IMG/VR virus record: IMGVR_UViG_3300031521_000049
Location: 1-64,000 of that record
Direction: 5' to 3' (one strand)
DNA length: 64,000 bases
Origin: a virus
Each line of letters begins with the position of its first letter. The first letter of the stretch is position 1. The notes under the pieces were generated by a model. The model had not been told where the DNA came from and did not search any database. It saw only the letters and a program-made list of their open reading frames with translations. Shown piece after piece: positions 23,935-60,257 of this stretch. The position numbers and the translations under genes are program-made.

Positions 23935-23946
23935 TTTATCCTCTGA

Positions 23947-24769: not shown

Positions 24770-24770
24770 T

Positions 24771-25463: not shown

Positions 25464-25467
25464 TAAT

Positions 25468-40969: not shown

Positions 40970-42079
40970 ATGATAAAGTCTGTTGAGTTACAAAACTTTC
41001 GATCCCATAAACTAACGAAGATAAAATTCGACAAAGGGATTAACTCCATAGTTGGATCTTCAGGCCGAGGAAAGACACATATCCTACGAGCATTGTATTG
41101 GGTAAAAGATAACAAACCAGATGGGCTTTCTTATATCTCTCATTTCAATCGTGATAAAAAAGGCTTGCCGATTGAGCCAACAAAAGTAATTATTGAGCTT
41201 GATAATAAAGTTTTTGTAATTCGGGAAAGGAGCAAAGAGTTTAACGGATATCGAATTAAAAATGGAAACGATGTTCAATCATTCGAAGCTATGAACGGTA
41301 AAGTGCCGGAACAAGTTTCCTCATTACTAAATATGGATGATGTAAATGTTCAAAAACAACTCGATGCTCCTTTCCTTCTTTCTACCTCAGCTGGCGAAGT
41401 TGCAAGATTCTTAAATGGAATTATTCGCCTCGATCTTATTGACGAAGTTCTAAGTCGCGCAGATATAAAGCATAGAAAATTAGTTTCAGATAAAAAAGAC
41501 CAAGAAAAAGAATATGAAGAAATAAATAAAAAAGTTGCCGACTTAGGATTTATCGAAGATGCAAAATTGTTACTTGAGAAAATAGAAATTATCTCGAAAG
41601 AAAAAGATGAGTTAGAAAACAAAAAAGAAATATTGATCGACATACAAGCAGAACTGCAAGAAATATATGACATAACAACAGAAGCAAAAGAAATTATAAA
41701 AGCAGAATCTATTGTTGAACAGATTGAAACTATCCTTGAGAATAAAAAATCAAAAGAAAAAAAATATAAATCATTATTGAATATTAAAAATGAATTATCC
41801 AAATTAGAAAAAGATTTGGATATTGGGTACGATATAAAAGAAGTTAAAGAATTAATTGAAAAAATCGAATCTGTATATACTATAATAAAAGAGAACAAAC
41901 AACGAAGAAAAGATTTAAAAGGAATTCAAGAGCAAATAAACACTCTTGATGATTTTATAAGAAAGAACACTAAATATATTTTAGCTCAAGAAAAAGAAAT
42001 TGAGAAAATATTGCCTGATGAGTGTCCTTGGTGTCATAGACCTTTGGATAAGAAACATTTTATGGAGAATCATAAATGA
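40970..42079 (+). CDS. SbcC/Rad50-like ATPase, N-terminal half with zinc hook
   Basis: 369 residues. N-terminal ATP-binding start: SVELQNFRSHKLTKIKF then Walker A GSSGRGKT at 29-36. Q-loop region follows, then a coiled coil from about 165 to 345, ending with the zinc-hook ECPWCHRPL (CxxC at 352-355). The protein stops just after the hook, so the returning coil, signature and Walker B are missing. These are found in the gene at 43511. With the SbcD-like nuclease between them, this forms a gp46/gp47-type end-processing complex. Confidence 0.8.
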   Translation: MIKSVELQNFRSHKLTKIKFDKGINSIVGSSGRGKTHILRALYWVKDNKPDGLSYISHFNRDKKGLPIEPTKVIIELDNKVFVIRERSKEFNGYRIKNGNDVQSFEAMNGKVPEQVSSLLNMDDVNVQKQLDAPFLLSTSAGEVARFLNGIIRLDLIDEVLSRADIKHRKLVSDKKDQEKEYEEINKKVADLGFIEDAKLLLEKIEIISKEKDELENKKEILIDIQAELQEIYDITTEAKEIIKAESIVEQIETILENKKSKEKKYKSLLNIKNELSKLEKDLDIGYDIKEVKELIEKIESVYTIIKENKQRRKDLKGIQEQINTLDDFIRKNTKYILAQEKEIEKILPDECPWCHRPLDKKHFMENHK

Positions 42080-43014
42080 AAGCAGTTGTTTGTAGTGATC
42101 TTCATGTCCGTTCTGATCGTCCTCGTTGCAGAATAGATGGTGGCAAATTAATAGGCGACATAAAAGCAAGCGAAGCATGGCAAACTTTTCAATGGACTTG
42201 CCTTTCGTTTATTGCAAATCAAGCAAACCTAAAAGATGCTCAGTTAATTTGTGTTGGAGATATTTTTAATAAAGTCCACGTTCCTGATGCTGTTGTAAAT
42301 GATGTTGTTACAGAATTTAATCGAGTTATAAAAGTAGTTAGAATACTTTGTGGTAATCACGATCTTCCTGGACATAACTTTAAAAACATAAAAGATTCTT
42401 CGATTGGTATTTTATGGGCAATGACTGAACAGCAAGATTCCAAAATAAAAAAGATTGCAGGAGCGGGATGTTACGCAAATTTTAATGAGAAAACAAAAGA
42501 AAGCAAAACAAATCCAGATATTCTTTTTATTCATAGATTGGTATTTGAAACTAAATCAGAAATGCCACCGAACACTGAAGCGACAACAGCGCAAGAATTA
42601 CTTGATGAATATCCAGATATGAAATGGATCTTTGTTGGCGATATGCATAGGGGCTTTCATTATGTGTCAAAAGGAAGACACGTTGTAAATTGTGGTTGTA
42701 TAAATAAACAATCGGCAGATGAACTTGATTATTCTCCATCCGTTTGGTTCGTAGATACAGATAAAAATATTATTGAAAGAATTAAAATGCCTGATGACTC
42801 TGAATTCGTTGATGATTCATATCTTAAAAACGAAAAAGAACGAAATGAAAAACTAAGTGCATTTGCAGAAGCTATTAAAATAAAAAAGCATTGCAAACAT
42901 ATGGGATTGTCTTTTGATAAAAATATTGAAACTGAATTAGAAAAAAATAAAAAGAGTTTAGGTGAAGCTGTTGTTTCTGAAGTTTTAGAATTAATGGAAG
43001 GAGTTGCAAAATGA
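42076..43014 (+). CDS. SbcD/Mre11-like nuclease (gp47-like)
   Basis: 312 residues. Metallophosphoesterase motifs in order: VVCSDLHVRSD (Asp, His), CVGDIFNKVHVPD, LCGNHDLPGH, then FVGDMHRGFHYV (the family's 'GH.H' is degenerate here). A C-terminal helical domain follows. It resects DNA ends for recombination with the split ATPase. ATGA overlap with the gene before and 4-nt overlap with the gene after. Confidence 0.82.
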   Translation: MKAVVCSDLHVRSDRPRCRIDGGKLIGDIKASEAWQTFQWTCLSFIANQANLKDAQLICVGDIFNKVHVPDAVVNDVVTEFNRVIKVVRILCGNHDLPGHNFKNIKDSSIGILWAMTEQQDSKIKKIAGAGCYANFNEKTKESKTNPDILFIHRLVFETKSEMPPNTEATTAQELLDEYPDMKWIFVGDMHRGFHYVSKGRHVVNCGCINKQSADELDYSPSVWFVDTDKNIIERIKMPDDSEFVDDSYLKNEKERNEKLSAFAEAIKIKKHCKHMGLSFDKNIETELEKNKKSLGEAVVSEVLELMEGVAK

Positions 43015-43265
43015 TTAAGACTAACAAGAAAATGGTTTTTGATTATTTGGATTCTGTAGATCGTAACGTTGTTTTTCACGGAAGAGATTTGAAGGATCAT
43101 ATCTTTTTTGCAACTGGTAAAGATCCATATACCGAAACCGTCCTAAAATATGCAAGAGATTATTGTTGCACTAAAAAAGCAACTTTGGTTTGTCTTAATA
43201 AACAGAAAAGCCTATATAGTTTTTCACCAGAACCCTTATCACATTTTAAATTAGGAGTAAATTAA
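43011..43265 (+). CDS. Small hypothetical protein in the nuclease operon
   Basis: 84 residues. N-terminal VFDYLDSVDRNVVFHGRDLK followed by a Cys pair (YARDYCCTKKATLVC); resembles a small winged-helix by layout. It sits between the nuclease and coiled-coil genes. Unknown. Confidence 0.45.
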   Translation: MIKTNKKMVFDYLDSVDRNVVFHGRDLKDHIFFATGKDPYTETVLKYARDYCCTKKATLVCLNKQKSLYSFSPEPLSHFKLGVN

Positions 43266-43514
43266 ATGGCTGTTACTATTGACGACATTGATTCTATAAA
43301 AGAAAAAATAGCTGATGCAAAAAACAAAAGCGCAAAAGCTGAAGGTGCTAAAGAAAGATTGACTGCTCAGTTGTATGAAGATTTCGATATAGAAAGCGGA
43401 GATGATATCGATTCAAAAATAACTGAGTATGATGATTCAATAGAAAAAGACGAAAAGAAAATTGAAAAGCTTTTAACCAAGCTCGACGAAATGCACGATT
43501 GGGAAGAAGAATGA
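43266..43514 (+). CDS. Small acidic coiled-coil protein
   Basis: 82 residues, acidic, two helical repeats (IDDIDSIKEKIADAKNKSAK; DSIEKDEKKIEKLLTKLDEM). It ends inside the start of the ATPase C-terminal half. It may bridge the two halves of the split SbcC-like protein, or be the remnant of the removed coil. Confidence 0.45.
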   Translation: MAVTIDDIDSIKEKIADAKNKSAKAEGAKERLTAQLYEDFDIESGDDIDSKITEYDDSIEKDEKKIEKLLTKLDEMHDWEEE

Positions 43515-44119
43515 ATTCAATACAGTTTTATTCTGACAAAATAAATAATCTATCCACAAGAAAAACTATTTATGAAGAAAAAATATCTTCAATTAAAAAG
43601 TCAGTAAAAACTATTGATAAAAAAATAGATATACTTGAAAAAGCTCAAGCATTTATACAGAAGGTGGCGCAAGAAACACAGTCACAATTAAAATTTCAAA
43701 TATCAGGTCCAGTCCAACTTGCTCTCGATGCTTGCTGGCCTGATGAAAAAGTATTCAGCCTTGAGTTTGATATAAAAAATAATCGTACAGTTGCACAATT
43801 AAAATTTCTTGATAATGGAAATTTAGTTGACCCGACAGAAGAGGATGGAGGCGGAGTTGTTGATGTTGCAGCTTTTGCTTTACGAATATCGACTTGGTCA
43901 TTAGGAAAATCTGCTCCAGTAATTTTAGTTGATGAACCTTTTAAAATGTTGTCTGTTGATTTGTCAGAAAAGATTGGTGATATTATGAAAGAACTATCAG
44001 AGAAACTTGGAATACAATTTATAATGGTAACTTCCCATGGATTAAATATGAGTGAAATTTCAGATAAAGTTTTTGAAATAACAAAACACAAAAAAATAAG
44101 TGAGGTTAAAGAATTATGA
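43511..44119 (+). CDS. SbcC/Rad50-like ATPase, C-terminal half
   Basis: 202 residues from the ATG at 43511 (ATGA-type overlap; a TTG four codons earlier is unlikely). N-terminal coiled coil (residues 5-60), then SLEFDIKNNRTVAQLKF, an ABC-signature-like segment (EDGGGVVDVAAFALRI), Walker B in PVILVDEPFKMLS and a D/H-loop-like IQFIMVTSHG. Together with the gene at 40970 it would rebuild the Rad50 head. Neither half contains both Walker motifs. Confidence 0.75.
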   Translation: MNSIQFYSDKINNLSTRKTIYEEKISSIKKSVKTIDKKIDILEKAQAFIQKVAQETQSQLKFQISGPVQLALDACWPDEKVFSLEFDIKNNRTVAQLKFLDNGNLVDPTEEDGGGVVDVAAFALRISTWSLGKSAPVILVDEPFKMLSVDLSEKIGDIMKELSEKLGIQFIMVTSHGLNMSEISDKVFEITKHKKISEVKEL

Positions 44120-44424: not shown

Positions 44425-44562
44425 TTGCCTAATAAAAATGTCGAGTATGATATTGAAGAAGGCGATGAGGATGACAAAATGTATGATGAAATGGATGATC
44501 TGAATAAAAAAGAAACAGATCAACATGATCCTGATTTTTTTAATGGAGGAGACAAAGAATGA
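44425..44562 (+). CDS. 45-residue acidic protein before the barrel gene
   Basis: TTG start with GGAGG seven bases upstream; TGA at 44560-44562 overlaps the barrel ATG. Acidic throughout (DIEEGDEDDKMYDEMDDLNK). Its translation would couple to the outer-membrane barrel gene. Function unknown. Confidence 0.5.
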   Translation: MPNKNVEYDIEEGDEDDKMYDEMDDLNKKETDQHDPDFFNGGDKE

Positions 44563-45572
44563 AGAAAGTTGTTTTTTTATTGGTTTTGACGCTTTTCGGG
44601 ATTTTATTTTCCCAGGAAGCAAAAAATCCTTTTTCAATCAGCGGCAACGTATATACCGGACTTAGGTCGGATATTACAAAAAGCAGTAATACTATTTATG
44701 CGAACGAAAATTCAAATGGGACGCCGATTTGGGCAAACGTAAGAGCAAGTTATTCTTTTGATGATAATGCTGGAGCGGTTTTGAATTTCAGAGTTAAAGG
44801 GATAGATTCTGTTTTCGCAACATCATCAAGATTTTATCTCTTTCTAAATCGCGGTTATATTTGGTCTAAATTTGCAGGTGGGCAAGTAAAAATTAGAACT
44901 GGATATCTTTGGGATTCTGATTTCGAAACATCTAATAATGGTTGGGATACTGCATCCAATTATGAGTGGGTGACTGAAGCAACTTTTAACCCAGCAAAGA
45001 ATTTGGAAATTGGTGCTACATTGCCAACTCCTTATGACGGAAAAACAAGTCTTGAGGATTCTGCAAAAAACACCACTTATGGGGTTCTTTATTCACCAAC
45101 AAACTTTAGGCTTTCTATTATGGGAGAATATGGAGCAACAGAATCAAATCGAGATGTTAATTTTGGGGTTGATTTTACTGGAATCAAAAACACTCTTTTC
45201 AGGATTGAAGGCGATTTACAACAAATAGGTTTTTCTGACTTGGGTTACAATCAGCTTTTTCAAGAAACATCTTATACCTTTGGTTCTGTAACTTCTGATA
45301 TACAAGTGACAGAGTATTTGTACAAAAACGGAGATTCAAATAAATTCAAGATTTATCCCAATATTCTTTTTGTTAACAACGGTGTTTCTTATTATACAGC
45401 ACTAAATGTTACTTTGATTAAAGGATCAAGTGATATTTATAAACAAATCGAAGTTAGTGCAAAAAAGAACATAAATCCAAAGACAAGTATCAAGGGCGGT
45501 TCTTACTTTACTTTTGATCCGTCCTCAGATTTTATGTTCAGTCCATATCTTGAATTTATTGCAACATTCTAA
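44559..45572 (+). CDS. Outer-membrane beta-barrel protein
   Basis: 337 residues with signal peptide (KKVVFLLVLTLFGILFSQ). Alternating strands throughout (GNVYTGLRSD, WANVRASYSF, FRIEGDLQQIGF, SPYLEFIATF) and a C-terminal Phe, the BAM recognition signature. Style recalls spirochaete porin-like proteins (family not assigned). It precedes a binding protein and two permeases with no strong gap, so it may supply outer-membrane passage for the substrate. Barrel genes of this kind are very unusual in phages. Confidence 0.75.
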   Translation: MKKVVFLLVLTLFGILFSQEAKNPFSISGNVYTGLRSDITKSSNTIYANENSNGTPIWANVRASYSFDDNAGAVLNFRVKGIDSVFATSSRFYLFLNRGYIWSKFAGGQVKIRTGYLWDSDFETSNNGWDTASNYEWVTEATFNPAKNLEIGATLPTPYDGKTSLEDSAKNTTYGVLYSPTNFRLSIMGEYGATESNRDVNFGVDFTGIKNTLFRIEGDLQQIGFSDLGYNQLFQETSYTFGSVTSDIQVTEYLYKNGDSNKFKIYPNILFVNNGVSYYTALNVTLIKGSSDIYKQIEVSAKKNINPKTSIKGGSYFTFDPSSDFMFSPYLEFIATF

Positions 45573-45585
45573 AAGGAGTTAATTG

Positions 45586-46842
45586 ATGAAAAGATTTTTT
45601 GTTTGTATTTTGATTGTTTTGCTTGCCTATTCGGTGTTTGCTGAAAAGAAAATTACTGTACTTCAGATTGGCGATATTAAATTTGCAAACGGCCATACAA
45701 TGTGGGGCGATGCAATTGCAAAACTCAAAGTTGTTTATCCTGATGTAATTGTAGAATTTGTTTCTGTCGATCAGACTGGTGGAACCACGATGACTATGGA
45801 CGCCATGCTTGCCGCAGGAAGTGCACCTAATATTTATTATGATTCACAAGTACGAACAGGAAAATATCTTGTAAAAGAATATGCTTTGCCTTTGAATAAG
45901 CTTGTGTCTGATATTAATAAGTATGATCCTGCCGCTATCGCCCCTTTTACAAAAAAAGGAGACGTTCTTGGCTTGCCAATGCCAGGAAGCTCCCAAGGGA
46001 TGTTTATCAATCTCGATATAATGAAAGAAATAGGATATACCGTTCCCGTAGATTGGACAATTTCAGATTTTCTTAAAATGGCAGAACTTGTAAAGCAGAA
46101 ATACAATGGTAAAAAATACGCTACTGGGTTTTTTGCTGCAAGTCAGTCAGGCGATTATTTGATTAATAACTGGTTTGCATCTTTCGGCGTTCCTTTTTAC
46201 GAGAACGGAAATTATGACAAACCTGTTATGGCAGATAAAGGTGGAGTTAAGGTTTATGAATTTTATCAGTTGCTAATGAAAAACGGATATATTTATAAAG
46301 ACTCTGCAAACATTCAAGATGATGATTTTATTCTTCAGTGGTGCGCTGGTAATATTGCAGCAACAGCATTTTTCCCAGCTTGGATAAAAGCATATCTTGA
46401 CTCTGCTATTGCTCAAGGAACAATTACTAAGTACCCAAATTATACTTTTGTTGCTTTTCCGCGAGCTCCTGGCGTTACAAAAGTTCCGACTTATACAAAT
46501 GGGTGCGGAGTAGTTATCCATAAAACTGGAACTGACCTTGATATTATTTCTGCAAAACTTGTTGAGTTTTTAGGTGATGCAGAATCACAAGGCAATCAAG
46601 CGAAGTATCAGAACAATGCACCGATTCGATCAGATGCAACATATTTTACAACTGACCCTTATCTAAAAATGATTGATGGTATTATTGCAAAGAACGGAGT
46701 TATGGATGTCGGCGTTTCAGATCCTCGCTTTCCTGAGCGTCGAGCAATTCAATATCCTATTTTGCAGAAGCTTTTGGCATTCAAGATCACTCCTGAAGAT
46801 GCTATAAAAGAATACCAGAAAAAGATGAGTGAAGTTAAATAA
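45586..46842 (+). CDS. ABC transporter sugar-binding protein (family 1)
   Basis: 418 residues from the ATG at 45586 (AAGGAG upstream). Signal peptide FFVCILIVLLAYSVFA, no lipobox Cys, so a free periplasmic protein. The fold pattern fits family 1 (MalE/UgpB) binding proteins: MDAMLAAGSAPNIYYDSQVR, LPMPGSSQGMFINLDIMKEI (the 'g.~yN.dl' motif), and GNIAATAFFPAWI. It captures a sugar or similar solute for the permeases downstream. Full-length and seemingly intact. Confidence 0.88.
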   Translation: MKRFFVCILIVLLAYSVFAEKKITVLQIGDIKFANGHTMWGDAIAKLKVVYPDVIVEFVSVDQTGGTTMTMDAMLAAGSAPNIYYDSQVRTGKYLVKEYALPLNKLVSDINKYDPAAIAPFTKKGDVLGLPMPGSSQGMFINLDIMKEIGYTVPVDWTISDFLKMAELVKQKYNGKKYATGFFAASQSGDYLINNWFASFGVPFYENGNYDKPVMADKGGVKVYEFYQLLMKNGYIYKDSANIQDDDFILQWCAGNIAATAFFPAWIKAYLDSAIAQGTITKYPNYTFVAFPRAPGVTKVPTYTNGCGVVIHKTGTDLDIISAKLVEFLGDAESQGNQAKYQNNAPIRSDATYFTTDPYLKMIDGIIAKNGVMDVGVSDPRFPERRAIQYPILQKLLAFKITPEDAIKEYQKKMSEVK

Positions 46843-46845
46843 TTT

Positions 46846-47688
46846 ATGAAAAACAAAATGAAAGTCATATTGATTTTGCCAACTCTTATATTTTTTGCCA
46901 TATTCACAATCTGGCCATTGTGTGAAGTTATATGGCTTTCATTTTTCAAAACAAATTTTATAGTTACTAAATTTGTATTTTTAGATAATTATAAAAATGT
47001 AATTACTAATCCAGATTTTTTACAATCTGTTTATAATTCTTTATTTTATACTATCTTGCTTGCACCAGCTCAAGTATTTTTTGGGTTTGTTGGTGCGTTG
47101 ATTGTTTTTGAGTTAAGTAAAAAATGGCAAGATATATCGAGAATTCTTTTTTATGTTCCTGTATTGTCATCAGGAATAATAATAGCTCAAGTTTGGAAAT
47201 GGGCATTTGGAATGGAAGGTCCATTTAATTGGCTCTTATCTTTTATAAATATTTCTCCGATCGCTTGGTTTGCAAAAGGAGAAACAGGAATTCCAACAGT
47301 TGCTTTTATTGTTTTGTTTTCATCTATTGGTGGAAATATAATAATTATTTTAACTGCATTGCTAGATGTTGATAAATCATTAATTGATTCTGGTAAAATA
47401 GACGGAGCTAATTATTTTCAATGTGTTAAGCATATTTTGACTCCAGCAATAAGCCCTATATTAAAAGTTGTTTTTATTGCATCGATAGTAAATGCTTTTC
47501 AGATATATGAAACTATAATGATGCTTTGCCCATATATTCATACTTCGACAATGACTTATTATATTTATCAAACAGGATTCAAGAATTCAAATTATGGATC
47601 AGCAGCAGTAGAGTCAATTTTGTTAATGATAATTGTTATGAGTCTTTTAGCTATTCAGAAGAAGATTAAAAATGAAAAAAGAGTATAA
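46846..47688 (+). CDS. ABC transporter permease (MalF/UgpA type)
   Basis: 280 residues, six predicted membrane segments, starting with KVILILPTLIFFAIFTIWPL. EAA-type loop: SGKIDGANYFQCVKHILTPA, contacting an ATPase in the cytoplasm. Three bases after the binding protein. Pairs with the permease at 47898. CUT1-type carbohydrate importers have this arrangement. Confidence 0.88.
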   Translation: MKNKMKVILILPTLIFFAIFTIWPLCEVIWLSFFKTNFIVTKFVFLDNYKNVITNPDFLQSVYNSLFYTILLAPAQVFFGFVGALIVFELSKKWQDISRILFYVPVLSSGIIIAQVWKWAFGMEGPFNWLLSFINISPIAWFAKGETGIPTVAFIVLFSSIGGNIIIILTALLDVDKSLIDSGKIDGANYFQCVKHILTPAISPILKVVFIASIVNAFQIYETIMMLCPYIHTSTMTYYIYQTGFKNSNYGSAAVESILLMIIVMSLLAIQKKIKNEKRV

Positions 47689-47911
47689 GGCAGATTTAAT
47701 AGCAAAAGAAAATCCTCGATGGAACAATGTAAAAGATGGTTTGCCAGTTCCATCAAAATTCGTTCGATGGTTAACAGCAGATGGAATTATATTATACAGA
47801 GCATTAGTTTCTATGACAGATAAAGATATGATTGGAAGAAACGCAACAAATAAATATAAATGTTTATATTGGAGAAATCTAAAGATAAAAAAGGTTGATG
47901 ATGAAAAATAA
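47672..47911 (+). CDS. Small soluble protein between the permease genes
   Basis: 79 residues, basic, no membrane segment; contains LPVPSKFVRWLTADGIILYR and KYKCLYWRNLK. It overlaps both permease genes (17 and 14 nt), so it belongs to the operon. Host CUT1 operons do not normally have a gene here. Unknown family. Confidence 0.5.
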   Translation: MKKEYKADLIAKENPRWNNVKDGLPVPSKFVRWLTADGIILYRALVSMTDKDMIGRNATNKYKCLYWRNLKIKKVDDEK

Positions 47912-48731
47912 AAAGATTTTGTTGAAGATACTTTTGGTCGTTTTGTTTGTTGTTATGTTTGTTCCTTTATGGTTTATGTTTGTCGGAAGTATGCAGAATC
48001 TAAATGGCGTTATGAGAATGCCACCTAAACTTTTCCCATATCCTTTCTTTTTGAATAACTATTTATCTTTTTTAGATTATCCTTTAATGACTTGGTTTAA
48101 AAATACAGTTTGGTCTTTATTTGTTATGGTTGTTATTTCTGTTTTTATTTCATCAAGCACTGGATATTTTTTCGCGACAACAAATTTTAAGTTTAAAGAA
48201 GTATTCTTTGCAATACTTTTAATTGGAATGTTGATGCCGAGAATTTCTTTTTTGATTCCTCAATACATAATATTAAAAAAGATTCATTTATCGGGAATGT
48301 TGATCGGCGTTGTTTTATCAAGTGCATATACAAGTTACGGAATATTGCTTGCAAGAAATTATTTTGAATCAATTCCTAAATCGTTATTTGAAGCAGCAGC
48401 AATAGACGGAGCGAACGATTGGGATATTTTGTTTCATATTGTTCTTCCTATAACTCCACCAGCAATCGCAACTCTCGCTTTATCAACTTCTATTTTTTAT
48501 CTATCTGATTTTATATGGCAAATGCTTGTTCTTCAGAATGATAAAAATATGACTTTATTAATCGGAATGATAAAGACAACTATGCAGATTCAATTTAGCG
48601 GGAGCAACGGCATTAATCCTTTAGGGCGAATGATGGCGGTCGGAATTATTCTTTTGATTCCCTTGGTTATAATATTTTTAATTGCTAACAAGTATTTTAC
48701 AAGTTCAAGAGGCGGAGAAATAAAGGAGTAA
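47898..48731 (+). CDS. ABC transporter permease (MalG/UgpE type)
   Basis: About 277 residues (starts at 47898 or 47901). Six predicted membrane segments; a clear EAA loop FEAAAIDGANDWDILFHIVL followed by PITPPAIATL. The N-terminal KILLKILLVVLFVVMFVPLW and PPKLFPYPFFLNNY are typical of this half. No ATPase gene follows; the pair would need a host MsmX-like ATPase. Confidence 0.9.
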   Translation: MMKNKKILLKILLVVLFVVMFVPLWFMFVGSMQNLNGVMRMPPKLFPYPFFLNNYLSFLDYPLMTWFKNTVWSLFVMVVISVFISSSTGYFFATTNFKFKEVFFAILLIGMLMPRISFLIPQYIILKKIHLSGMLIGVVLSSAYTSYGILLARNYFESIPKSLFEAAAIDGANDWDILFHIVLPITPPAIATLALSTSIFYLSDFIWQMLVLQNDKNMTLLIGMIKTTMQIQFSGSNGINPLGRMMAVGIILLIPLVIIFLIANKYFTSSRGGEIKE

Positions 48732-48734
48732 TGA

Positions 48735-49019
48735 ATGATTTCAGAAAACATCTGGATTAGAAAAGAGGCGTTTGCAAGATGGAAAGAAAGGATGACAAGT
48801 TCTGATCTTTTTCAAAAATCAAATAGAAAAGGAATTAATCTTTCATATTGCGCTTTTATGACTGCTTGGAACTTAGCACAATTAACTTTGCTTCGAGCTA
48901 TTATAAATGATACGGAGAATGAAGGAATTGTAAATAATAATATTTATACCAAACTTTACGAAATACAAGAGGAGGTTTTAACATATGAAAAAGTACAAAC
49001 TAACATCCAAAGCAATTGA
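48735..49019 (+). CDS. Small hypothetical protein
   Basis: 94 residues, helical (YCAFMTAWNLAQLTLLRAII). Follows the permease by three bases and overlaps the next gene by 35 nt. No family recognised. Confidence 0.45.
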   Translation: MISENIWIRKEAFARWKERMTSSDLFQKSNRKGINLSYCAFMTAWNLAQLTLLRAIINDTENEGIVNNNIYTKLYEIQEEVLTYEKVQTNIQSN

Positions 49020-49170
49020 TTTATTTAAGAAAGGATTTATAGAAGAAGAAGGTGAATTTTCTTTTTTACGAATAGAATTAGATGATTGTGAATTAGGACA
49101 ACAACATTCTATAATTTCTTTTTTTACAAATGTATTAAACAACAAAAAATATTTTAAAGAGGTAAAGTAA
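48985..49170 (+). CDS. Small hypothetical protein
   Basis: 61 residues, alpha/beta (SKAIDLFKKGFIEEEGEFSF). AGGAGG upstream. Its last base is the first base of the next gene (TAATG). Unknown. Confidence 0.45.
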   Translation: MKKYKLTSKAIDLFKKGFIEEEGEFSFLRIELDDCELGQQHSIISFFTNVLNNKKYFKEVK

Positions 49171-50171
49171 TGAGTGAAAAAGGATTAACAATTGCATTGA
49201 TTACAGCAAGAGGAGGATCAACAAGGATTCCAAGAAAGAACATTAAAATCGTTTGCGAACTTCCAGTTGTCGCGTGGAACATCATTCAAGCAAAGTGTTC
49301 AAAAAATATTGATCGAGTATTTTTGACAACTGACGATGATGAGATTGCAGAGATTGGAGCAAAGTTTGGAGCTGAAATTATTAGGCGCCCAAAATATGAA
49401 AACAGTATTTCTGCAAATGTTCCTTTTGCTCATGCTCTTGATTATATCGAAAACACTTTGAAGATCGATGTAAAAAATATTATTCCTTTGCTTCCAACTT
49501 CACTTCTTAAAAAACCTGAAGACCTTGATAATATGATTTCATATTTTGATGATTTTTATGGAACAGAAATCGATAGCATGATAACTGCCTGCCCAATGAA
49601 AGAATGTTATATTTATAAAAATATTGTTCCTTATCAAAAAAGATATGGAAATAAAGAATGCACGATTCCTGGAGAGGTCGAAACAAAAGAAGGATATGAT
49701 GCTAAATGGGCAATAACTGATTCTCTTTGGAATTATTCAAAGATGATGGGCGGCTGGGCAATTGGAACAAGAGATTTTTATTATAAGGCATGGACAACCT
49801 CTCCCGCTCGTGATATTGATATCGTAACTTTGCCAATGGATACAAAATCTGTATTCACATTATACAAAGTTGAAGAATGGCAATGCTGCGATATCGACTA
49901 TCCTATTGATCTTGAAATGGCAGAGATATTTTTTGAAAAGTTTATTCTGAAAGGAAAAGGCGTTCAGGTTTATTATGATTACTACTTTAAAAACAAGGTA
50001 GTTGAAAAAGCAAGAAACCATTTAGATGAACAACTAAAAAAATATGGTGGAAATTTTCAAGTTGCAAATACAGATGTAAAAGAAAATGATTTTGATATTG
50101 GTGGTTTGTTATTTGAAAAAAAATTAAATAATGATATTGACAAAATAATTTCTGATGAGGAGGAAAAATGA
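49170..50171 (+). CDS. CMP-nonulosonate synthetase-like cytidylyltransferase
   Basis: 333 residues. The N-terminal nucleotide-binding motif ITARGGSTRIPRKNIKIVCE matches the NeuA/PseF family ('ipARggSkripkKNi'), followed by DRVFLTTDDDEIAEIGAKFG and an IIPLLPTSLL strand. Such enzymes activate sialic, pseudaminic or legionaminic acid with CTP. It is about 100 residues longer than usual, the extra part being a helical C-terminus. The adjacent DUF115 gene suggests a glycosylation pair. Confidence 0.72.
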   Translation: MSEKGLTIALITARGGSTRIPRKNIKIVCELPVVAWNIIQAKCSKNIDRVFLTTDDDEIAEIGAKFGAEIIRRPKYENSISANVPFAHALDYIENTLKIDVKNIIPLLPTSLLKKPEDLDNMISYFDDFYGTEIDSMITACPMKECYIYKNIVPYQKRYGNKECTIPGEVETKEGYDAKWAITDSLWNYSKMMGGWAIGTRDFYYKAWTTSPARDIDIVTLPMDTKSVFTLYKVEEWQCCDIDYPIDLEMAEIFFEKFILKGKGVQVYYDYYFKNKVVEKARNHLDEQLKKYGGNFQVANTDVKENDFDIGGLLFEKKLNNDIDKIISDEEEK

Positions 50172-50374
50172 AAGCTTTATTGCTTTGTAGTTATTGTGGA
50201 ACCGATGAGGATGGATGTACAGATGAAAATCCTTGTCATGAGTGCCTACAGATGGATAATGTAGTCGAAATAAATGAGTCTGCAATTATACATAATTATG
50301 GAGGTCTTCGTTACAATAATGAAGTAAATCATTTTATAGACACCAGCATTAAAGACAGATCGGAGGAAAAATGA
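50168..50374 (+). CDS. Small Cys-rich protein
   Basis: 68 residues: LLCSYCGTDEDGCTDENPCH then ECLQMDN, five to six Cys likely binding zinc, resembling short phage zinc proteins. It overlaps both neighbours by 4 nt. Unknown function. Confidence 0.5.
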   Translation: MKALLLCSYCGTDEDGCTDENPCHECLQMDNVVEINESAIIHNYGGLRYNNEVNHFIDTSIKDRSEEK

Positions 50375-51729
50375 GAAGTGAAGAAACAGTAAGAAGCCAA
50401 TCATCAGCGTATAATTCAAGTACTATAAGAATACAATTAATTCACGAAGAAGTAAATTCGATTATGAATTATGCCAATGTAATGAAGATGTATAAAGATG
50501 GTCGAGGTCGAGATATTGGCGATGAACTTAAAAAAAATAAAGATCCTTGCATAATTCTTGGATCTGGTCCATCATTAGATTATTCAATTCAGTTTCTAAA
50601 AGACTGGAAAGGAGGAATAATTTGTACTACATCTCACGCAAGAACATTAATGTATTATGGAATCGAACCAACATATATTTTAGTTCTCGATCCTTTTTGT
50701 TGCTGGGAAGAAATTGAAGGCATAGATTGGAGTCAAACAAAAACAAAACTTATTTCAACCCCCTGTTGTCATCCAAGTCTATTTGAAAAATGGCCTAATG
50801 ATGTTTTGTTTTATATCCAAAATACTGGCGACGACAATTCTTTTTATTCAACTACATTAAAAAGAATGTATTCTCGGCGCGACGACGAACATAAAAGAGA
50901 TTGCACATTCACTTATTATATCAGAACAGAAATTGTTTTGTTTGCTTGTTCTCCACCTATGCAAATATTTGTTGCTCAGATTCTTAATTATGGGAACATT
51001 TTTCTTTGCGGAGTTGATTTTGGGTTCAGTAAAGAGAAAGAAAGATTTACTGAATGGACAAGAAAAGATATTGACTCTGGCAGTTATTCAAACAATGGAT
51101 ATAAAGAAAATAAATCAAATGGTTTGAATAAAGAAGAATGGGAGAAACACGAACATCCATATATTCCAAATGAAAACGATATTGTTTGCAAGAATGGAGT
51201 TTTGACTCAAGATATTCACTTGTATTATAAAAAGAATTTTATTAGTTCTTGGCGTTTATCACACCAGACTATTTATACAACAGATCATGGAATCATATCT
51301 GAGATTCCTTTTGTTGATATTGAAGAGTTGATAAAGAATGAAGGATCAATGGAAGAGCAATCATTTGAATTTATAAATGATATTGCAGATTCATATCTTG
51401 CATCAGTTGGGTGTTTTGTAATCGAAACAGAAACAGCTGGAGTTTCTTTTGTAGAATCAAATAATCCTATTCCTGAATTGACTGAATATATGAGAGGAAT
51501 AAATAATGGATACATTTGTAAACACTGCAAGTCTAAATTCAAATATGTTCCTGACGGAAAGCCAGTTGAAACAAAATGTATCAATTGTGGAAAGGAAGAT
51601 GCTTTAATTCAAGTATGTCGAATTGATATTGATAAAAATATTAATCGAGTAAAAAAATTACTTGAACCATTGAAGAAAAAAGAACGTAACAAGAAAAAGA
51701 ATGAAAAGAAAAAACTTATGAGGAAATAA
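50371..51729 (+). CDS. DUF115 (MAF/MptE-like) protein with zinc ribbon
   Basis: 452 residues. The DUF115 core (PCIILGSGPSLDYSIQFLKD, ICTTSHARTLMYYGIEPTYI, LVLDPFCCWEEI) is present at about 55-130, and a CGVDFGFSKEKERF motif follows. Family members include motility-accessory (Maf) transferases that put nonulosonic acids on flagellin, and the archaeal MptE pyrophosphokinase. The C-terminus adds a zinc ribbon (YICKHCKSKFKY ... CINCGK) and a basic tail. It pairs with the CMP-sugar gene nearby. Enzyme activity not proven. Confidence 0.65.
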   Translation: MRSEETVRSQSSAYNSSTIRIQLIHEEVNSIMNYANVMKMYKDGRGRDIGDELKKNKDPCIILGSGPSLDYSIQFLKDWKGGIICTTSHARTLMYYGIEPTYILVLDPFCCWEEIEGIDWSQTKTKLISTPCCHPSLFEKWPNDVLFYIQNTGDDNSFYSTTLKRMYSRRDDEHKRDCTFTYYIRTEIVLFACSPPMQIFVAQILNYGNIFLCGVDFGFSKEKERFTEWTRKDIDSGSYSNNGYKENKSNGLNKEEWEKHEHPYIPNENDIVCKNGVLTQDIHLYYKKNFISSWRLSHQTIYTTDHGIISEIPFVDIEELIKNEGSMEEQSFEFINDIADSYLASVGCFVIETETAGVSFVESNNPIPELTEYMRGINNGYICKHCKSKFKYVPDGKPVETKCINCGKEDALIQVCRIDIDKNINRVKKLLEPLKKKERNKKKNEKKKLMRK

Positions 51730-53280: not shown

Positions 53281-53511
53281 ATGAAAACCCAATACCGAAA
53301 CGAAGCAGAAAAACTACTAAAATCTGAAATTTCCGAGCATTATCTATATCATTATATTGATGAAAAGATTATAATTAGTTCAATATGTTACACAATCATA
53401 GGAATTACGTTTTCTGAGATTGAAGACGCAAGAACGATACAAGTAAAAGAAGCTGGCATTGCCAATAAATCTTTACTTGAATGGAGATTGAAGAAAAGAG
53501 GTATAGAATGA
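53281..53511 (+). CDS. Small hypothetical protein
   Basis: 76 residues, helical and charged; ends ATGA-coupled to the lipoprotein gene. No motif recognised. Confidence 0.45.
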   Translation: MKTQYRNEAEKLLKSEISEHYLYHYIDEKIIISSICYTIIGITFSEIEDARTIQVKEAGIANKSLLEWRLKKRGIE

Positions 53512-53990
53512 AAAGATTTTTGTTTTTGGTTATTCCTTTTATTTTTTTATCGTGCACTCAGCTTGAAATGGATGAGTTTCAAGACAAATCATCAATAACT
53601 CAAATCGATAAAATTGATAATCATTTTAACTCTTTATATGAGGCTCGTCATTGGGTTTATATAAATGTTGATTATAAAGTAAACACTCCGTATCAATGGC
53701 AATCACCAAAACAAACAGAATCAAGAAAAAGTGGAATGTGCGCCGATGCAACTATTTTATTAATGGCATATGCTCTTGATATGGGTTATAAAAATGTATC
53801 AATGCTCGGAATAAGAGAAAATGATGGAGTGCTTCATGCATTATTAAAAGTCGATGGAATAGTATACGAACCTCAAGTAATGATAACAAGAACAAAACCA
53901 TACACACTAATAAAAGAATATTCATATAAAGAAGCAATCGATATAGTTTATTATGATTATAAAAATAGGAGCGTAATCCAATATGAATAA
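53508..53990 (+). CDS. Lipoprotein with transglutaminase-like fold
   Basis: 160 residues from the ATG at 53508. Lipobox FLSCTQ after a hydrophobic leader (RFLFLVIPFIFLSC). The mature part has SGMCADATILLMAYALDMGY (likely nucleophile Cys), VLHALLKVDGIVYEPQ (His and a Gln/Glu), the triad layout of transglutaminase-like cysteine hydrolases. A membrane-anchored phage enzyme could alter cell-surface proteins or exclude superinfection. The predicted triad is intact; activity unproven. Confidence 0.6.
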   Translation: MKRFLFLVIPFIFLSCTQLEMDEFQDKSSITQIDKIDNHFNSLYEARHWVYINVDYKVNTPYQWQSPKQTESRKSGMCADATILLMAYALDMGYKNVSMLGIRENDGVLHALLKVDGIVYEPQVMITRTKPYTLIKEYSYKEAIDIVYYDYKNRSVIQYE

Positions 53991-54822: not shown

Positions 54823-55341
54823 ATGGCAAGAATAACAGGGTACAATAAAGAAGTTCATCCCAAAATAGTAAAACGCTTGATTTCATTAGATTATACAGAT
54901 GAACAAGCAGCTCAACATATGGCGATATCAATTGCTACATTTAATAATTGGAAAAAGAAATACCCTGAATTCTTAAAAGCTATACAACAAGGATCATATG
55001 AACCAATTAAAAAAGTAACAGGAAAGATGTATAGAATAGCTAATGGATATGATTATGAAGAACCTATATACGAAATAATATATCCACCAGAAAACAAAGG
55101 CGCTAAAGGAAAGAATGGTAAACCAATGGGACGTAAAAAGACTCCTGAAAAAAGATTGGTTAGAATAGTAACAAAACATATGCCTCCAAATGTTATTGCA
55201 CAAAAGTTTATATTAACTAATAAAGATAAAACAAAATGGCAAGAATCAAGTAAAATAGAAGTTGGTGGCCAAATGGAATATATAGTAAAAGCACCTATAA
55301 TCCCAGTAATACCTACTATTAAAAAGGAGAAAAAGAAATGA
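54823..55341 (+). CDS. terS: Terminase small subunit
   Basis: 172 residues. N-terminal helix-turn-helix (DEQAAQHMAISIATFNNWKK) and a following FLKAIQQG helix typical of small terminases, then a basic KKTPEKRLVRIVTKHMPPN region and a C-terminal oligomer/TerL-contacting part. It recognises phage DNA for packaging. The next reading frames are a 64-residue gene and TerL. Confidence 0.82.
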   Translation: MARITGYNKEVHPKIVKRLISLDYTDEQAAQHMAISIATFNNWKKKYPEFLKAIQQGSYEPIKKVTGKMYRIANGYDYEEPIYEIIYPPENKGAKGKNGKPMGRKKTPEKRLVRIVTKHMPPNVIAQKFILTNKDKTKWQESSKIEVGGQMEYIVKAPIIPVIPTIKKEKKK

Positions 55342-55532
55342 GTGAAAGATTACCGTGTAAAGATATCAATGTTGAATCATCTATTTGTAAAAGGAATAAT
55401 AGAATTTGTATTAATTGCAATGGATATGAACCTATTGAGCAAATAGAATCTTTTGATGATGGTTTTAATAAAGTTGCATTACCTGAATTGCCAGATAATA
55501 GCAATTATAGAAACAATAAAGGAAAAAGATAA
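55338..55532 (+). CDS. Small Cys-containing protein between terminase genes
   Basis: 64 residues: LPCKDINVESSICKRNNRIC then INCNGYE, probable zinc site. Overlaps terS by 4 nt. Unknown function. Confidence 0.5.
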   Translation: MSERLPCKDINVESSICKRNNRICINCNGYEPIEQIESFDDGFNKVALPELPDNSNYRNNKGKR

Positions 55533-55539
55533 GAAATAA

Positions 55540-56832
55540 ATGTCAGATTCCGATGGCAAGATAAAAATTGATTTAACTCATGCTCTTGAATATATGAATC
55601 CTGCATTCTATGATTTATATCAAGATCAGCATCCTCTTCAAGTTGTTATCGGAGGCGCGAATAGTTCTAAATCATTTACAGTTGCTCAGAAAGTAATATT
55701 AAAAACAATGCTTTCTAAACGATCAAGATGGTTATCAATAAGAAAAGTAAAAAAAGATGTTAAGCATTCTGTATATGATACGCTTCGAGATATTATTTGT
55801 GATACTGATGGATTTAATCTCGAAGCGTTGTTTTCATTTAATAATACAGATTCATCTATTGTATTTAAGCCAAATCGTTCTGATATATTAGGTGTAGGTC
55901 TTGATGATGTTAATAAATTAAAATCAATAAAAGATCCAACAGGGTTTTGGGTTGATGAAGCAGATCAAATATCATATAAAGATTTGCAACAATTACGATT
56001 ACGATTAAGAACTAATAATAAATCAAATGAATTGCTTCAAGGAATATTATCTCTCAATCCAATACATATTCAGCATTGGATTAAAACAGAATTAGTTGAT
56101 AAGAGTCCTGAAGATGTATTTTTTCATCATTCGACATATAAAGATAATTTGTTCCTATCAGATAAAGTACGCGAATATATGGAATCAATTACAGATCCTT
56201 ATTTCAAGAAAGTATATGTACTTGGAGAATGGGGTGTTTATGGAAATACTGTATTTGATAATATTGTAATAGAAGATTTCGATTATACAGAAGACGATCT
56301 TGAAAATGTATTTACTGGAATGGACTTTGGTACTGTTCATGCTTCTGCAATAGAGCGAGGCGGATTCAAAGATGGTGATTTATATTCATTCGACGAGATA
56401 TGGGGAAAGGGTTGGACGAATACAGATTTTATACAAGCTGCTGAAGACTATTGGGAAAATCAAATTGGGCATGATTGGTTAATAACAGCAGATAGCGCAG
56501 AACCTGATCGTATTGAAGAATGGAGAAGAGCTGGGTGGAATATAGAGCCTGCTAAAAAAGGTCCAGGATCATTAGGATATGGAATTGGCTTTCTAAAATC
56601 GAGAACATGGCATATACATAAGACATTTTGTCCGAACCTTGCAAGAGAGGCTCAACAATTTAAAAGGAAAGAAGATAAATCAGGAGAGCCAACAGAAGGA
56701 TTCGTTGAACAGAATGACGATGGAATTGCAGCAATGAGATATGGTACTGAATCTGTTTGGCATCCTGGATATTATATTGGAAATCTCGATGAAGATGATT
56801 ATGGCATATCTGCTGACGATTTAGGTTTATAA
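55540..56832 (+). CDS. terL: Terminase large subunit
   Basis: 430 residues. ATPase: Walker A-like GGANSSKSFTVAQK at 33-46, Walker B GFWVDEADQISYKDLQQLRL at about 135-150, coupling motif SLNPIHIQHW. RNase H-like nuclease: acidic residues in GMDFGTVHASAIERG and TADSAEPDRIEEWR. Matches the PBSX/SPP1-type TerL family. It cuts and translocates DNA into the procapsid. Confidence 0.92.
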   Translation: MSDSDGKIKIDLTHALEYMNPAFYDLYQDQHPLQVVIGGANSSKSFTVAQKVILKTMLSKRSRWLSIRKVKKDVKHSVYDTLRDIICDTDGFNLEALFSFNNTDSSIVFKPNRSDILGVGLDDVNKLKSIKDPTGFWVDEADQISYKDLQQLRLRLRTNNKSNELLQGILSLNPIHIQHWIKTELVDKSPEDVFFHHSTYKDNLFLSDKVREYMESITDPYFKKVYVLGEWGVYGNTVFDNIVIEDFDYTEDDLENVFTGMDFGTVHASAIERGGFKDGDLYSFDEIWGKGWTNTDFIQAAEDYWENQIGHDWLITADSAEPDRIEEWRRAGWNIEPAKKGPGSLGYGIGFLKSRTWHIHKTFCPNLAREAQQFKRKEDKSGEPTEGFVEQNDDGIAAMRYGTESVWHPGYYIGNLDEDDYGISADDLGL

Positions 56833-56848
56833 AAAGGAGAATTGAATT

Positions 56849-57055
56849 ATGGAAGTACTTGGAGAATCATTACCAAAAGAAATGGCACGAGTAAGGGAAT
56901 TAATTATTCAGTATAATGATCCAATGTTAAATGGTTGTGGAAGAATGGCAGCAGCTATGATGGAAAATAGTTTAAGAGAAGCAGATAAGGCAGCAATGAG
57001 TGGTGATCTTGTTGCTATGATAAATGCATATAATGATCTAAAGGATTATAGCTAA
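56849..57055 (+). CDS. Small helical protein after TerL
   Basis: 68 residues, AAGGAG site, helical (CGRMAAAMMENSLREADKAA). Between terL and portal. Unknown structural or packaging accessory. Confidence 0.45.
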   Translation: MEVLGESLPKEMARVRELIIQYNDPMLNGCGRMAAAMMENSLREADKAAMSGDLVAMINAYNDLKDYS

Positions 57056-57172
57056 ATGAAAGGCGCGTGGAGCATTTTGATGTTTAGTTTTATTTGTTTA
57101 CCATTAGCGATATGGAAAATAGTAGATATAATAATATTCATTATTAATCACGTTACTATAGTTTTAAGGTAA
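57056..57172 (+). CDS. 38-residue membrane protein
   Basis: Starts right after the previous TAA (TAAATG). Two hydrophobic stretches (ILMFSFICLPLAIW; IIIFIINHVTIV). Unexpected between terminase and portal. Unknown. Confidence 0.4.
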   Translation: MKGAWSILMFSFICLPLAIWKIVDIIIFIINHVTIVLR

Positions 57173-57259
57173 TTAGTCAATAATGTGTATAGTCATCAAT
57201 AAAATGACAATACAGTAAGTAAATAAGGCGTAAAAAACGATTATAAAGAGGAGTCAGGA

Positions 57260-57409
57260 TTGAAATATTTGATGTTTGATAGCGAAATTACAACAGAATC
57301 AATAGAAACTCTTATTAATAAAATAACTGAAGATGTTATTATAAACACAAAGCAATTAAAAACTTTGGCTATTAATGCTGAACTTATATCTGGAGGAAAA
57401 ATATTATGA
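57260..57409 (+). CDS. 49-residue protein before portal
   Basis: TTG start with AGAGGAG seven bases upstream; TGA overlaps the portal ATG. Helical, mixed charge (TTESIETLINKITEDVIINT). Translation-coupling leader or small packaging factor. Confidence 0.4.
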   Translation: MKYLMFDSEITTESIETLINKITEDVIINTKQLKTLAINAELISGGKIL

Positions 57410-58923
57410 CTATAATGAAGACCGAAAGCGAACAATTAACTACAGAGGAAATTCTTTCATTTATTAATACATATAAAGCAATCGAAGTTCCAAAGCTCGA
57501 TAAGTTATGGGAATATTATCTTGGACATAATACTAAGATATTAAAACGAACAATAGCTCCAAATGTGAACAATCCTGATAATAGAATTCCTGTTCCATAT
57601 GGACGTAAAATTATCACTACTTATTCTGGATATGCTTTTCGCCCAAAATATATTACTTACAAAGAAATTGAAGATGAAACAATTGAAGTTCCTGAAGGTG
57701 AGAAAATAGAAACTCCTTATTACGATCAATTAAATGAAAACTTTAAAATAAATAAGGAATGGATTAAAACAAACAGAGCTGGTCGCAATACTGCAATATT
57801 TGGATTAGCATATGAGCTTGTTTATATTGATACAGAAACAGCATTAAACGAAAAAGGAATGATAACTAATAAAAATTACGCTCGTTGGGTTTCTGTTGAT
57901 CCTCGCGAAATGATATTATTATATGATTTCAGTATTGAACCTAAAAAGAAAATAGCAATTAGGTTTTTTAAGACAGAAGGAAATAATGGCCGAGTCGAAG
58001 TTTATTATGACGACCATTATGAAAAATATATTTGGACAATGAAAGATGACGAAGGTAACGAGGAAAAATTAACTAAAGAAGGCGAAGATTATACAAACTT
58101 CTTTGGACAAATTCCTGTAGTATCATATTATTTCGGTGATGAAATGAATGGATTGATTGAACCTGTTCTTCCATTGCTCGATGCTTATGACACATTAACA
58201 TCTGATTCAATGAATGAATTCGATAGATTTGCTTTTGCTTATTTGATTATGAAAAAGTTTGGATTAACAGATCAAGCAAAAAAGCAAAGTTCTGAGATGG
58301 TAGAATCAGCAGCAAGAACATTAAAAAAGAAAAGAATATTTGAACATTTGCCAGAAGGGGCAGATATATCTTTCCTGACAAAAGATATTCCAGATGGTTT
58401 TATTAAATTTATGACTGATCTATTGAAACAAGAAATACACGCTCAAGCTCATGTTCCTGATTTCACAATGATGACGGGAGCATTAACGGGAGCTGCAATA
58501 GACAGGCTTTTATTTGACTTTGAAAATGTTGTTAGTTCTGCTGAAGCTGATTTTGATGTTGGATTATGCGAACGAATTGATTTGATTTCAATTATATATC
58601 GAACCACAGGAGGAGTCGACGGATCATCAGATCAAATAGTTATTACTCATAAAAGGAATAAACCAAATAATCTTGCTGAGCTTGCACAAACAGCCGTTGC
58701 AATGAAGAATGCAGGATTCAGTCGTTATTTAATTGCTGATATAATGCCTGACGATATTGTTCCTGATGTTGAAAAAGAATTAGAAAGACAAGATCAAGAT
58801 ATGGAAGCGTTAATGCCTGATGTAGAGAATATGGGATTTGGAAACGATACAAATACTAATGATACTACTAATCAAGACAACAATAATGATACACAAAACA
58901 CTGATGAGAATATAACAGAATAA
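57406..58923 (+). CDS. Portal protein (SPP1 gp6-like)
   Basis: 505 residues. N-terminal region with VPYGRKIITTYSGYAFRPKY, WVSVDPREMILLYDFS and YYFGDEMNGLIEPVLPLLDA, then a long helical stem and a C-terminal crown ending in an Asn/Asp-rich tail. This order matches SPP1-type portal proteins. It forms the dodecameric DNA gate at the capsid vertex. Right place after TerL. Confidence 0.88.
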   Translation: MTIMKTESEQLTTEEILSFINTYKAIEVPKLDKLWEYYLGHNTKILKRTIAPNVNNPDNRIPVPYGRKIITTYSGYAFRPKYITYKEIEDETIEVPEGEKIETPYYDQLNENFKINKEWIKTNRAGRNTAIFGLAYELVYIDTETALNEKGMITNKNYARWVSVDPREMILLYDFSIEPKKKIAIRFFKTEGNNGRVEVYYDDHYEKYIWTMKDDEGNEEKLTKEGEDYTNFFGQIPVVSYYFGDEMNGLIEPVLPLLDAYDTLTSDSMNEFDRFAFAYLIMKKFGLTDQAKKQSSEMVESAARTLKKKRIFEHLPEGADISFLTKDIPDGFIKFMTDLLKQEIHAQAHVPDFTMMTGALTGAAIDRLLFDFENVVSSAEADFDVGLCERIDLISIIYRTTGGVDGSSDQIVITHKRNKPNNLAELAQTAVAMKNAGFSRYLIADIMPDDIVPDVEKELERQDQDMEALMPDVENMGFGNDTNTNDTTNQDNNNDTQNTDENITE

Positions 58924-58937
58924 AAAAGGATTACTAA

Positions 58938-59165
58938 ATGCGATTGTTCAACATGATTAGGCTTGAAGATGTAAGTAATAATAGTGGAACTGGAATTGTA
59001 GCTCAAGGATGTGTTTTTGATGATGAGACAGTTACTATGAGGTGGCTGTCAAAGTATAGATCAACAGTTGTTTTTAAATCTTTATGCGATTTGAAAAAGA
59101 TTCATTGTCATAAAGGAAAAACAATTATTGAATATGTAAATGAATCGAATATTAAGGAGGAATGA
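58938..59165 (+). CDS. Small hypothetical protein
   Basis: 75 residues, beta-rich start (IVAQGCVFDDETVTMRWLSK). Lies between portal and minor head genes. Unknown. Confidence 0.45.
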   Translation: MRLFNMIRLEDVSNNSGTGIVAQGCVFDDETVTMRWLSKYRSTVVFKSLCDLKKIHCHKGKTIIEYVNESNIKEE

Positions 59166-59168
59166 ATT

Positions 59169-59333
59169 ATGGGTGGAAAAGGATCAGGGCGAAAAGCAGG
59201 CGGAGCAGGAAATAAAAAAGTAATAACCTCCACAAAACAAAAAACAGTCAAGATAAGCACCAAAAGAAAAATTGGATATAGAATATCTGATGTTGGGCCT
59301 GGCGGAAAAGAATATAACGTAAGAAAAGGTTAA
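59169..59333 (+). CDS. 54-residue glycine-rich basic protein
   Basis: AAGGAGG site. Begins GGKGSGRKAGGAGNKKVITS, very basic; similar Gly/Lys leaders start many phage head proteins near portal. Possibly a DNA- or portal-associated piece. Confidence 0.45.
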   Translation: MGGKGSGRKAGGAGNKKVITSTKQKTVKISTKRKIGYRISDVGPGGKEYNVRKG

Positions 59334-59336
59334 TAA

Positions 59337-60257
59337 ATGCCAACACCAGAACGATTGCAATTTGAAGCAATAAATAAATTAGCTCAAAAAATTAATACTT
59401 ACGAAAAGCAAGTATCTAAATCTTTATACGACGCACTTCAGACGATGCGTTCTGATATGCAAAAGATATATGATAAGTACGCAACGAATGGAGTATTAAG
59501 TAGAGCCGATATGACTCGGTATAATCGCTACGCTTCAATGGAAAAACAAATGCTTTCTGCAATCGATCCGGCGTTAAAAGAAAATTTAAAAACAATATCT
59601 AAACTTATGCCCGATATGTATAATGAATCTTTTTTTAGAGAGGCTTGGCAAATAGATAATGTATCGGGTGTTCGTTTAAACTGGGGAACAATAAATAAAG
59701 ATGTAATAATGGAAGACCTTGCAAATGAACACGATAAAATAGCATATGAAAAATATCCAACTAATGCAAGATTTGAAATTAGAAAAGCTTTGAACAATGG
59801 TTTGACTCTGGGTAAATCGTTAACACAAATGACTCGCGATTTAAAAAAAGCAATGAACATAACCAATATGGCAGCAATGAGAATAATAAGAACTGAAGCA
59901 ATGACTGCTCAAAATGCTGCTGCTAACGATGTATATATTCGGGCATTTGAAAAAGGTATTGAAGGCGACGATATATGGGATGCAACAAAAGATGCAAGAA
60001 CAAGAGCAGATCACGGTTATGCCGATGGACAAATAAAAGATAAGAAGACTGGAATGTTTTCTTTACCCGGAGAAGATCCATTTCCTTATCCTTGCCATGA
60101 AAGTTTGACTGCAAAGAACAGAATCAATTGTCGATGTAATCATAGATTCCAAGTGTCTGGATATTCGCCACAATTAATGCGAACAAGAGAACAAGGAATA
60201 TTACCATATATGAATTATGATGATTGGAAAAAGAAATATCCAATTAAAGTAAAATAA
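59337..60257 (+). CDS. Minor head protein (Mu gpF / SPP1 gp7-like)
   Basis: 306 residues. Helical N-terminal half; at about 195-285 the family signature: IIRTEAMTAQNAAANDVYIR, IWDATKDARTRADHGYADGQ, KNRINCRCNHRF. These proteins are packaged in small numbers and take part in capsid assembly or DNA ejection. Follows the portal in canonical order. Confidence 0.85.
   Translation: MPTPERLQFEAINKLAQKINTYEKQVSKSLYDALQTMRSDMQKIYDKYATNGVLSRADMTRYNRYASMEKQMLSAIDPALKENLKTISKLMPDMYNESFFREAWQIDNVSGVRLNWGTINKDVIMEDLANEHDKIAYEKYPTNARFEIRKALNNGLTLGKSLTQMTRDLKKAMNITNMAAMRIIRTEAMTAQNAAANDVYIRAFEKGIEGDDIWDATKDARTRADHGYADGQIKDKKTGMFSLPGEDPFPYPCHESLTAKNRINCRCNHRFQVSGYSPQLMRTREQGILPYMNYDDWKKKYPIKVK

Follow-up and report, generated by a model that had tools for sequence, protein, structure and literature searches.

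The window analysed here is a stretch of 64,000 nucleotides of the IMG/VR virus record IMGVR_UViG_3300031521_000049, which is linear and 66,833 bases long. Between a SbcC/SbcD/RecN-like block (40970-44119) and a terminase-portal-MuF block (54823-60257) lies a row of genes, all on the plus strand. The first ORF (44425-44562) starts with TTG, has a strong AAGGAGG ribosome site and encodes an acidic peptide of 45 residues. It is followed by an outer-membrane-barrel-like protein of 337 residues (44559-45572), a soluble periplasmic solute-binding protein (SBP) of the CUT1 sugar type (45583-46842) and two ABC permeases (46846-47688 and 47895-48731) with a small ORF interleaved between them (47672-47911). 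A preliminary description had named the barrel, the binding protein and the two permeases in the segment 44425-48731, and all of them are present there, the SBP and the permeases with Pfam support. The row extends past 48731, through two small ORFs (48735-49019 and 48985-49170), into a CTP_transf_3 gene (49170-50171) and an MptE-like/Maf gene (50371-51729). Together these genes make up a module with the order SBP, permease 1, permease 2, CMP-synthetase and Maf-like transferase, of which the predicted importer is the first half. Tight spacing and the common strand suggest that the module genes form a single transcript (operon); a promoter and terminator scan found sites no commoner than in shuffled sequence. 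Terminase, portal, MuF, tape measure and replication genes flank the module on both sides, i.e. the context is genuinely that of a phage.

The SBP scores above the Pfam cut-offs for SBP_bac_8 (E 1.7e-18) and SBP_bac_1 (E 3e-16). Its structure model has an SBP fold, with a Z of about 22 to sugar-binding SBPs and a weak placement of the domains. On these two grounds it is a sugar-type solute-binding protein, as expected for a CUT1 importer. The two permeases with EAA loops that such an importer has are also found: both exceed the BPD_transp_1 cut-off (E 2.5e-8 for permease 1 and 3.7e-14 for permease 2), and their EAA coupling loops are DSGKIDGANYFQCVKHILTP and EAAAIDGANDWDILFHIVLP. The company of these genes suggests that the three proteins form an ABC importer of sialic acid (nonulosonic acid). 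Neither the SBP nor the Maf-like protein has a match in a collection of 50,697 phage records; permease matches in this collection were set aside, as they are below 30% identity and the records are unannotated. No relatives of the SBP were found by a single-sequence search of IMG/VR or by a profile search of GTDB contigs, both of which use short exact patterns that miss divergent members. The permease profile found only three distant loci in GTDB.

The family profile of the synthetase (49170-50171) matches NeuA 9ftb with an E-value of 5e-29, and also 6ifd, 1qwj and 1eyr, with KdsB far behind. In Pfam the protein is above the cut-off for CTP_transf_3 (E 3.1e-14). Its best NCBIfam match is PseF (E 5.6e-21), at 75.2 bits against the cut-off of 205.7 bits for the PseF equivalog TIGR03584. 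Nor does any match reach the PseD equivalog cut-off of NCBIfam. By sequence family we assign the 49170-50171 protein as a CMP-nonulosonate synthetase (NeuA/PseF).

The last gene of the module (50371-51729) is above the Pfam cut-off for MptE-like proteins (E 5.1e-19). Its model (pLDDT 79) matches Maf 5mu5 with a Z of 18.9 and 3.1 A over 235 residues, followed by MptE (Z 13) and the CstI/CstII sialyltransferases (Z about 8-9). The protein thus has the Maf catalytic-domain fold, of GT42 type, and does not have the full-length Maf architecture: its 452 residues match residues 237-514 of a chain of 632-666 residues. We call it Maf-like and not Maf, because the flanking domains of Maf are absent and the C-terminus ends in a CxxC..CxxC of its own. 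With the Maf flagellin transferases (5mu5; PMC13317340) it shares the catalytic fold, the conserved GSGPS motif and a CMP-sugar synthetase as partner, whereas it is shorter, without the flanking domains, has the CxxC..CxxC end and is located away from flagellin genes. No flagellin gene was seen among the ORFs of the window. Two tandem Maf-like genes occur within one phage module in L055 (16233-19194) and in L119 (9851-12332).

The same row is found in G001 (IMGVR_3300044477_000045), a contig from a different metagenome, with SBP, permease 1, small ORF, permease 2, two small ORFs, CMP-synthetase, Maf-like gene, FEN gene and terminase in the order of the window. The SBP and the permeases are 61-66% identical at the protein level, the small ORFs 32% (47672-47911), 44% (48735-49019) and 47% (48985-49170), and the stretch from SBP to terminase is about 70% identical at the nucleotide level. 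Between the two contigs the dN/dS (Nei-Gojobori) is about 0.2 for the SBP (0.275/1.39), permease 1 (0.300/1.44) and permease 2 (0.296/1.60), similar to the phage FEN gene (0.265/1.33), which served as the core gene for comparison. This indicates that the importer has been kept functional in the phage lineage. G007 (67 kb) likewise has its importer between the RecN-like gene and the CMP-synthetase, Maf-like gene and terminase, and the contig breaks inside permease 2. The window comes from a metagenome contig, and the preliminary description had named a chimera at the edges, i.e. host importer genes fused to phage sequence by assembly, as the case that would overturn it, but the syntenic relatives and the purifying selection rule out such a fusion or a host contamination.

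IMG/VR was scanned with profiles of the SBP, permease 2 and the Maf-like protein, and the fetched loci were then searched with profiles. About 19 distinct viral contigs, with near-identical pairs counted once, have the five genes SBP, permease 1, permease 2, CMP-synthetase and Maf-like transferase in one order and on one strand, and terminase, portal or MuF genes are present on most of them. In the scan with permease 2, which is blind to the downstream genes, a synthetase lies downstream in 17 of 19 loci and a Maf-like gene in 14 of 19; of the two loci lacking the synthetase, one is on a contig that stops just past the permease. Three loci (L078, L080, L081) have the importer and the CMP-synthetase and no Maf-like gene detected by profile; nearby ORFs, e.g. 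L080 2848-4263, could encode a different transferase. Next to the cellular importers of spirochaetes (L044, L045), Treponema (L025, L026) and Bacillus (L024), neither a synthetase nor a Maf gene is found in the flanks covered, some of them short.

Over 16 phages, the trees of the SBP, permease 1 and permease 2 are concordant (r 0.84-0.90, with none of 2000 permutations as high). The agreement between the Maf tree and the importer trees is weak (r 0.16-0.37). All five gene trees had been expected to agree fully and they do not, i.e. the importer and transferase halves recombine. That the two halves are reshuffled between phages yet remain adjacent in a constant order suggests that they are linked in function. 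For both the SBP and permease 1, the sampled trees place the phage proteins in a group separate from their cellular counterparts, and permease 2 has no clear grouping. The parts of the module belong to known families, and their combination in viruses appears to be undescribed; no account of it turned up in the open-access literature searched.

No ABC ATPase (PF00005) is found in the entire 66,833-base record, and PF00005 is above cut-off in none of 33 related viral records, including those of 66.8 kb and 67.2 kb. As a control, the same family was found in 14 out of 14 cellular genomes. Sub-threshold hits in G007 and G011 were rejected as a hidden ATPase, being short local matches within a 311-residue frame; the match in G011 falls in a clamp-loader-like ORF. 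The EAA coupling loop is the place where the ATPase docks on an ABC permease. It is intact in all 16 permease-1 proteins checked and in 15 of 16 permease-2 proteins, the pattern having missed G410. The lack of a viral ATPase together with the conservation of the docking loops is what sharing of a host ATPase predicts. The preliminary description had proposed an importer without its own ATPase, and this extends to the related phages. If it works, the phage importer must use a shared host ATPase, i.e. one half of the transporter would be viral and the motor cellular.

Cyanophage PstS is a phage-carried periplasmic ABC binding protein for phosphate that relies on the ABC parts of the host. It is an SBP alone, without permeases, whereas here the SBP is accompanied by permeases and the proposed substrate is a glycosylation precursor. 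All seven CUT1 importers of pneumococcus are without an ATPase of their own (PMC3302838), and so is the sialic-acid importer SatXYZ, which was modelled with MsmK (PMC10955332). An effect of MsmK on the uptake of sialic acid by pneumococcus was not seen in PMC3302838, in conflict with earlier work. The SAT2/SatXYZ importers of Ruminococcus gnavus and Streptococcus, with a shared MsmK (PMC10955332, PMC3302838), resemble the phage importer in gene content, with one SBP, two permeases and no ATPase gene in the operon. They are cellular and catabolic, whereas the phage module is viral and continues into a synthetase and a transferase.

The barrel-like protein (44559-45572) has a signal peptide, no cysteine and a terminal Phe. 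Its beta-type amphipathicity has a z of 4.3 compared with shuffles, and six other proteins of the window range from -2.5 to 0.3. It matches no Pfam family. One of 393 spirochaete genomes contains a relative (28% identical, E 3.8e-8), and in the phage locus L055 a weak homologue is located directly upstream of the SBP (26% over 156 residues, pairwise E 5e-5); G007 and G011 have no barrel in this slot. The outer-membrane channel of the preliminary description is therefore plausible as a function of this protein, but as a part of the module it is optional, being found in two phages, the window and L055.

The phage SBPs carry a signal peptide but no lipobox, which fits a host with two membranes. 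The nearest cellular SBP (E 7e-33), like the barrel relative, is from spirochaetes, the sole phylum searched at such depth, and spirochaete hosts are a plausible lead. The genes next to the nearest cellular importer, that of the spirochaete G259 (L045 2732-8292), encode a DegT aminotransferase, an aldo/keto reductase and a GntR regulator, a gene company that hints at amino-sugar substrates for this cellular importer.

NeuB makes the nonulosonic acid itself, so a phage that has the synthetase and the transferase and lacks NeuB needs the finished sugar acid. In the importer-bearing records searched no NeuB was found. In three transferase-bearing viral records, two of them fragments, the DNA examined contains no importer, and each of these records has NeuB. 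The first, G010 (L013), contains a Maf-like gene, a DegT/LegC-PseC-like aminotransferase, an SDR, NeuB (TIGR03569, E 1e-64) and a cytidylyltransferase. In G420 (L066) a Maf-like gene is found with a PseB-like dehydratase (E 5e-77) and an ORF of the NeuB family with a weak match (35 bits). The third, G432 (78 kb), was first found as a contig end with CMP-synthetase and Maf-like genes, and the NeuB search was afterwards run on it as a test. Besides NeuB (E 1e-48), it encodes two radical-SAM proteins, a SIS isomerase and a class-III aminotransferase. If the contig ends are taken as neighbours, these genes are located between the RecN-like gene and the CMP-synthetase, Maf-like gene and terminase, i.e. 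in the slot that the importer has in the window and in G007. The simplest reading is that an importer of nonulosonic acid fills the gap left by NeuB, a supply that could also come from a host NeuB. Judged from gene content, the best explanation appears to be that these phages obtain a sialic-acid-like sugar either by synthesis or by import, two supplies that would be interchangeable.

We consider it probable that the segment encodes the supply half of a nonulosonate glycosylation pathway of the phage, with import or synthesis of the sugar, activation by CTP and transfer to protein. The sugar acid would cross the outer membrane through the barrel, or through host porins where the barrel is absent, and would be captured in the periplasm by the SBP. 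The two permeases would then import it, driven by a host ATPase of CUT1/MsmX type, the synthetase would use CTP to convert it to a CMP-sugar, and the Maf-like enzyme would transfer the sugar to a protein in the cytoplasm. The sialylation of Haemophilus influenzae by precursor scavenging has the same three steps, with import, CMP activation by NeuA and a sialyltransferase. There the importer is of TRAP type and the product is lipooligosaccharide, whereas the phage would use an ABC importer and a Maf-like enzyme. Prophages of Acinetobacter encode nonulosonate-modifying enzymes that act on the capsule sugars of the host (PMC12053666, PMC6586298); these are also phage genes acting on nonulosonic acids, but without a module of importer and transferase.

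The likeliest acceptor would be a virion protein, with host flagellin as the alternative. A virion protein is favoured because the transferase gene adjoins the terminase, portal and MuF genes, and because Maf enzymes glycosylate proteins before export (PMC13317340). The complete reading, in which the phage imports an extracellular building block for virion glycosylation with a host ATPase, two phages add a channel and relatives swap the importer for synthesis, is a tentative one, somewhat short of an even chance. With the pathway unchanged, the sugar could instead be added to host flagellin or to the host surface, so that a re-glycosylated host has altered receptors and superinfection is blocked. 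True Maf enzymes modify flagellin (PMC13317340), the phage transferase has their fold and a Maf-like match is found in 143 of 393 spirochaete genomes, but the phage protein is without the Maf flanking domains (452 against 632-666 residues), has its own CxxC..CxxC end and is encoded next to virion genes. We regard a host acceptor as rather unlikely, though it is the main alternative. The preliminary description had also suggested a change in the host surface, which is closer to the glycosylation reading favoured here, but the route would be glycosylation fed by the importer.

Its other suggestion, that the importer feeds infected cells, fits the neighbouring genes less well. Here the importer would be a nutritional auxiliary metabolic function bringing in carbohydrate as carbon and energy, and the sugar-activation neighbours would be without meaning. 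CUT1 importers are mostly nutritional. The closest structures to the SBP bind other sugars (oligosaccharides), the model being too coarse for the binding pocket, and the permeases are similar to those of glucose, glycerol-phosphate and maltose systems. However, the importer of the window has no recognisable catabolic enzyme as a neighbour, nearly all importer loci continue into the synthetase and the sialyltransferase-fold enzyme, and NeuB substitutes for the importer in three phages, in G432 within the importer slot itself. Nutrition is for these reasons improbable. More improbable still is that the importer supplies the synthetase not with a nonulosonic acid but with another sugar or small molecule that is modified later, e.g. 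a KDO-like octulosonic acid: the synthetase matches KdsB weakly and G432 also carries a phosphoheptose-isomerase-like ORF, but the NeuA/PseF matches are much stronger and the genes that substitute for the importer are of the NeuB family.

If glycosylation with a supplied nonulosonic acid is correct, a group of uncultured phages carries dedicated transport for a glycan building block and not for food. A sialic-acid-like decoration of phage particles or hosts would then be a selected trait, one that survives recombination and is supplied by two interchangeable routes, make or import.

Other genes of the window and of the related contigs were also observed. Downstream of the module, a transglutaminase-like domain (DUF553, E 6.5e-7) is found in a lipoprotein-like protein encoded at 53481-53990. 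In L103 (IMGVR_3300036766_000548) the terminase ORF (6339-8816) has 825 residues and an apparent intein-like insert. A holin-like ORF of the window is followed by two long open frames of one strand that overlap each other (11948-12388 and 11952-12476) and may encode a nested spanin pair. On the minus strand, 23098-27534 contains ORFs that, judged by eye, resemble a queuosine/7-deazaguanine cluster (QueD-, QueE-, FolE- and QueC-like), together with a YhhQ-like transporter (24771-25631) and two TGT/DpdA-like ORFs, also identified by eye. This cluster suggests 7-deazaguanine modification of DNA in the phage.
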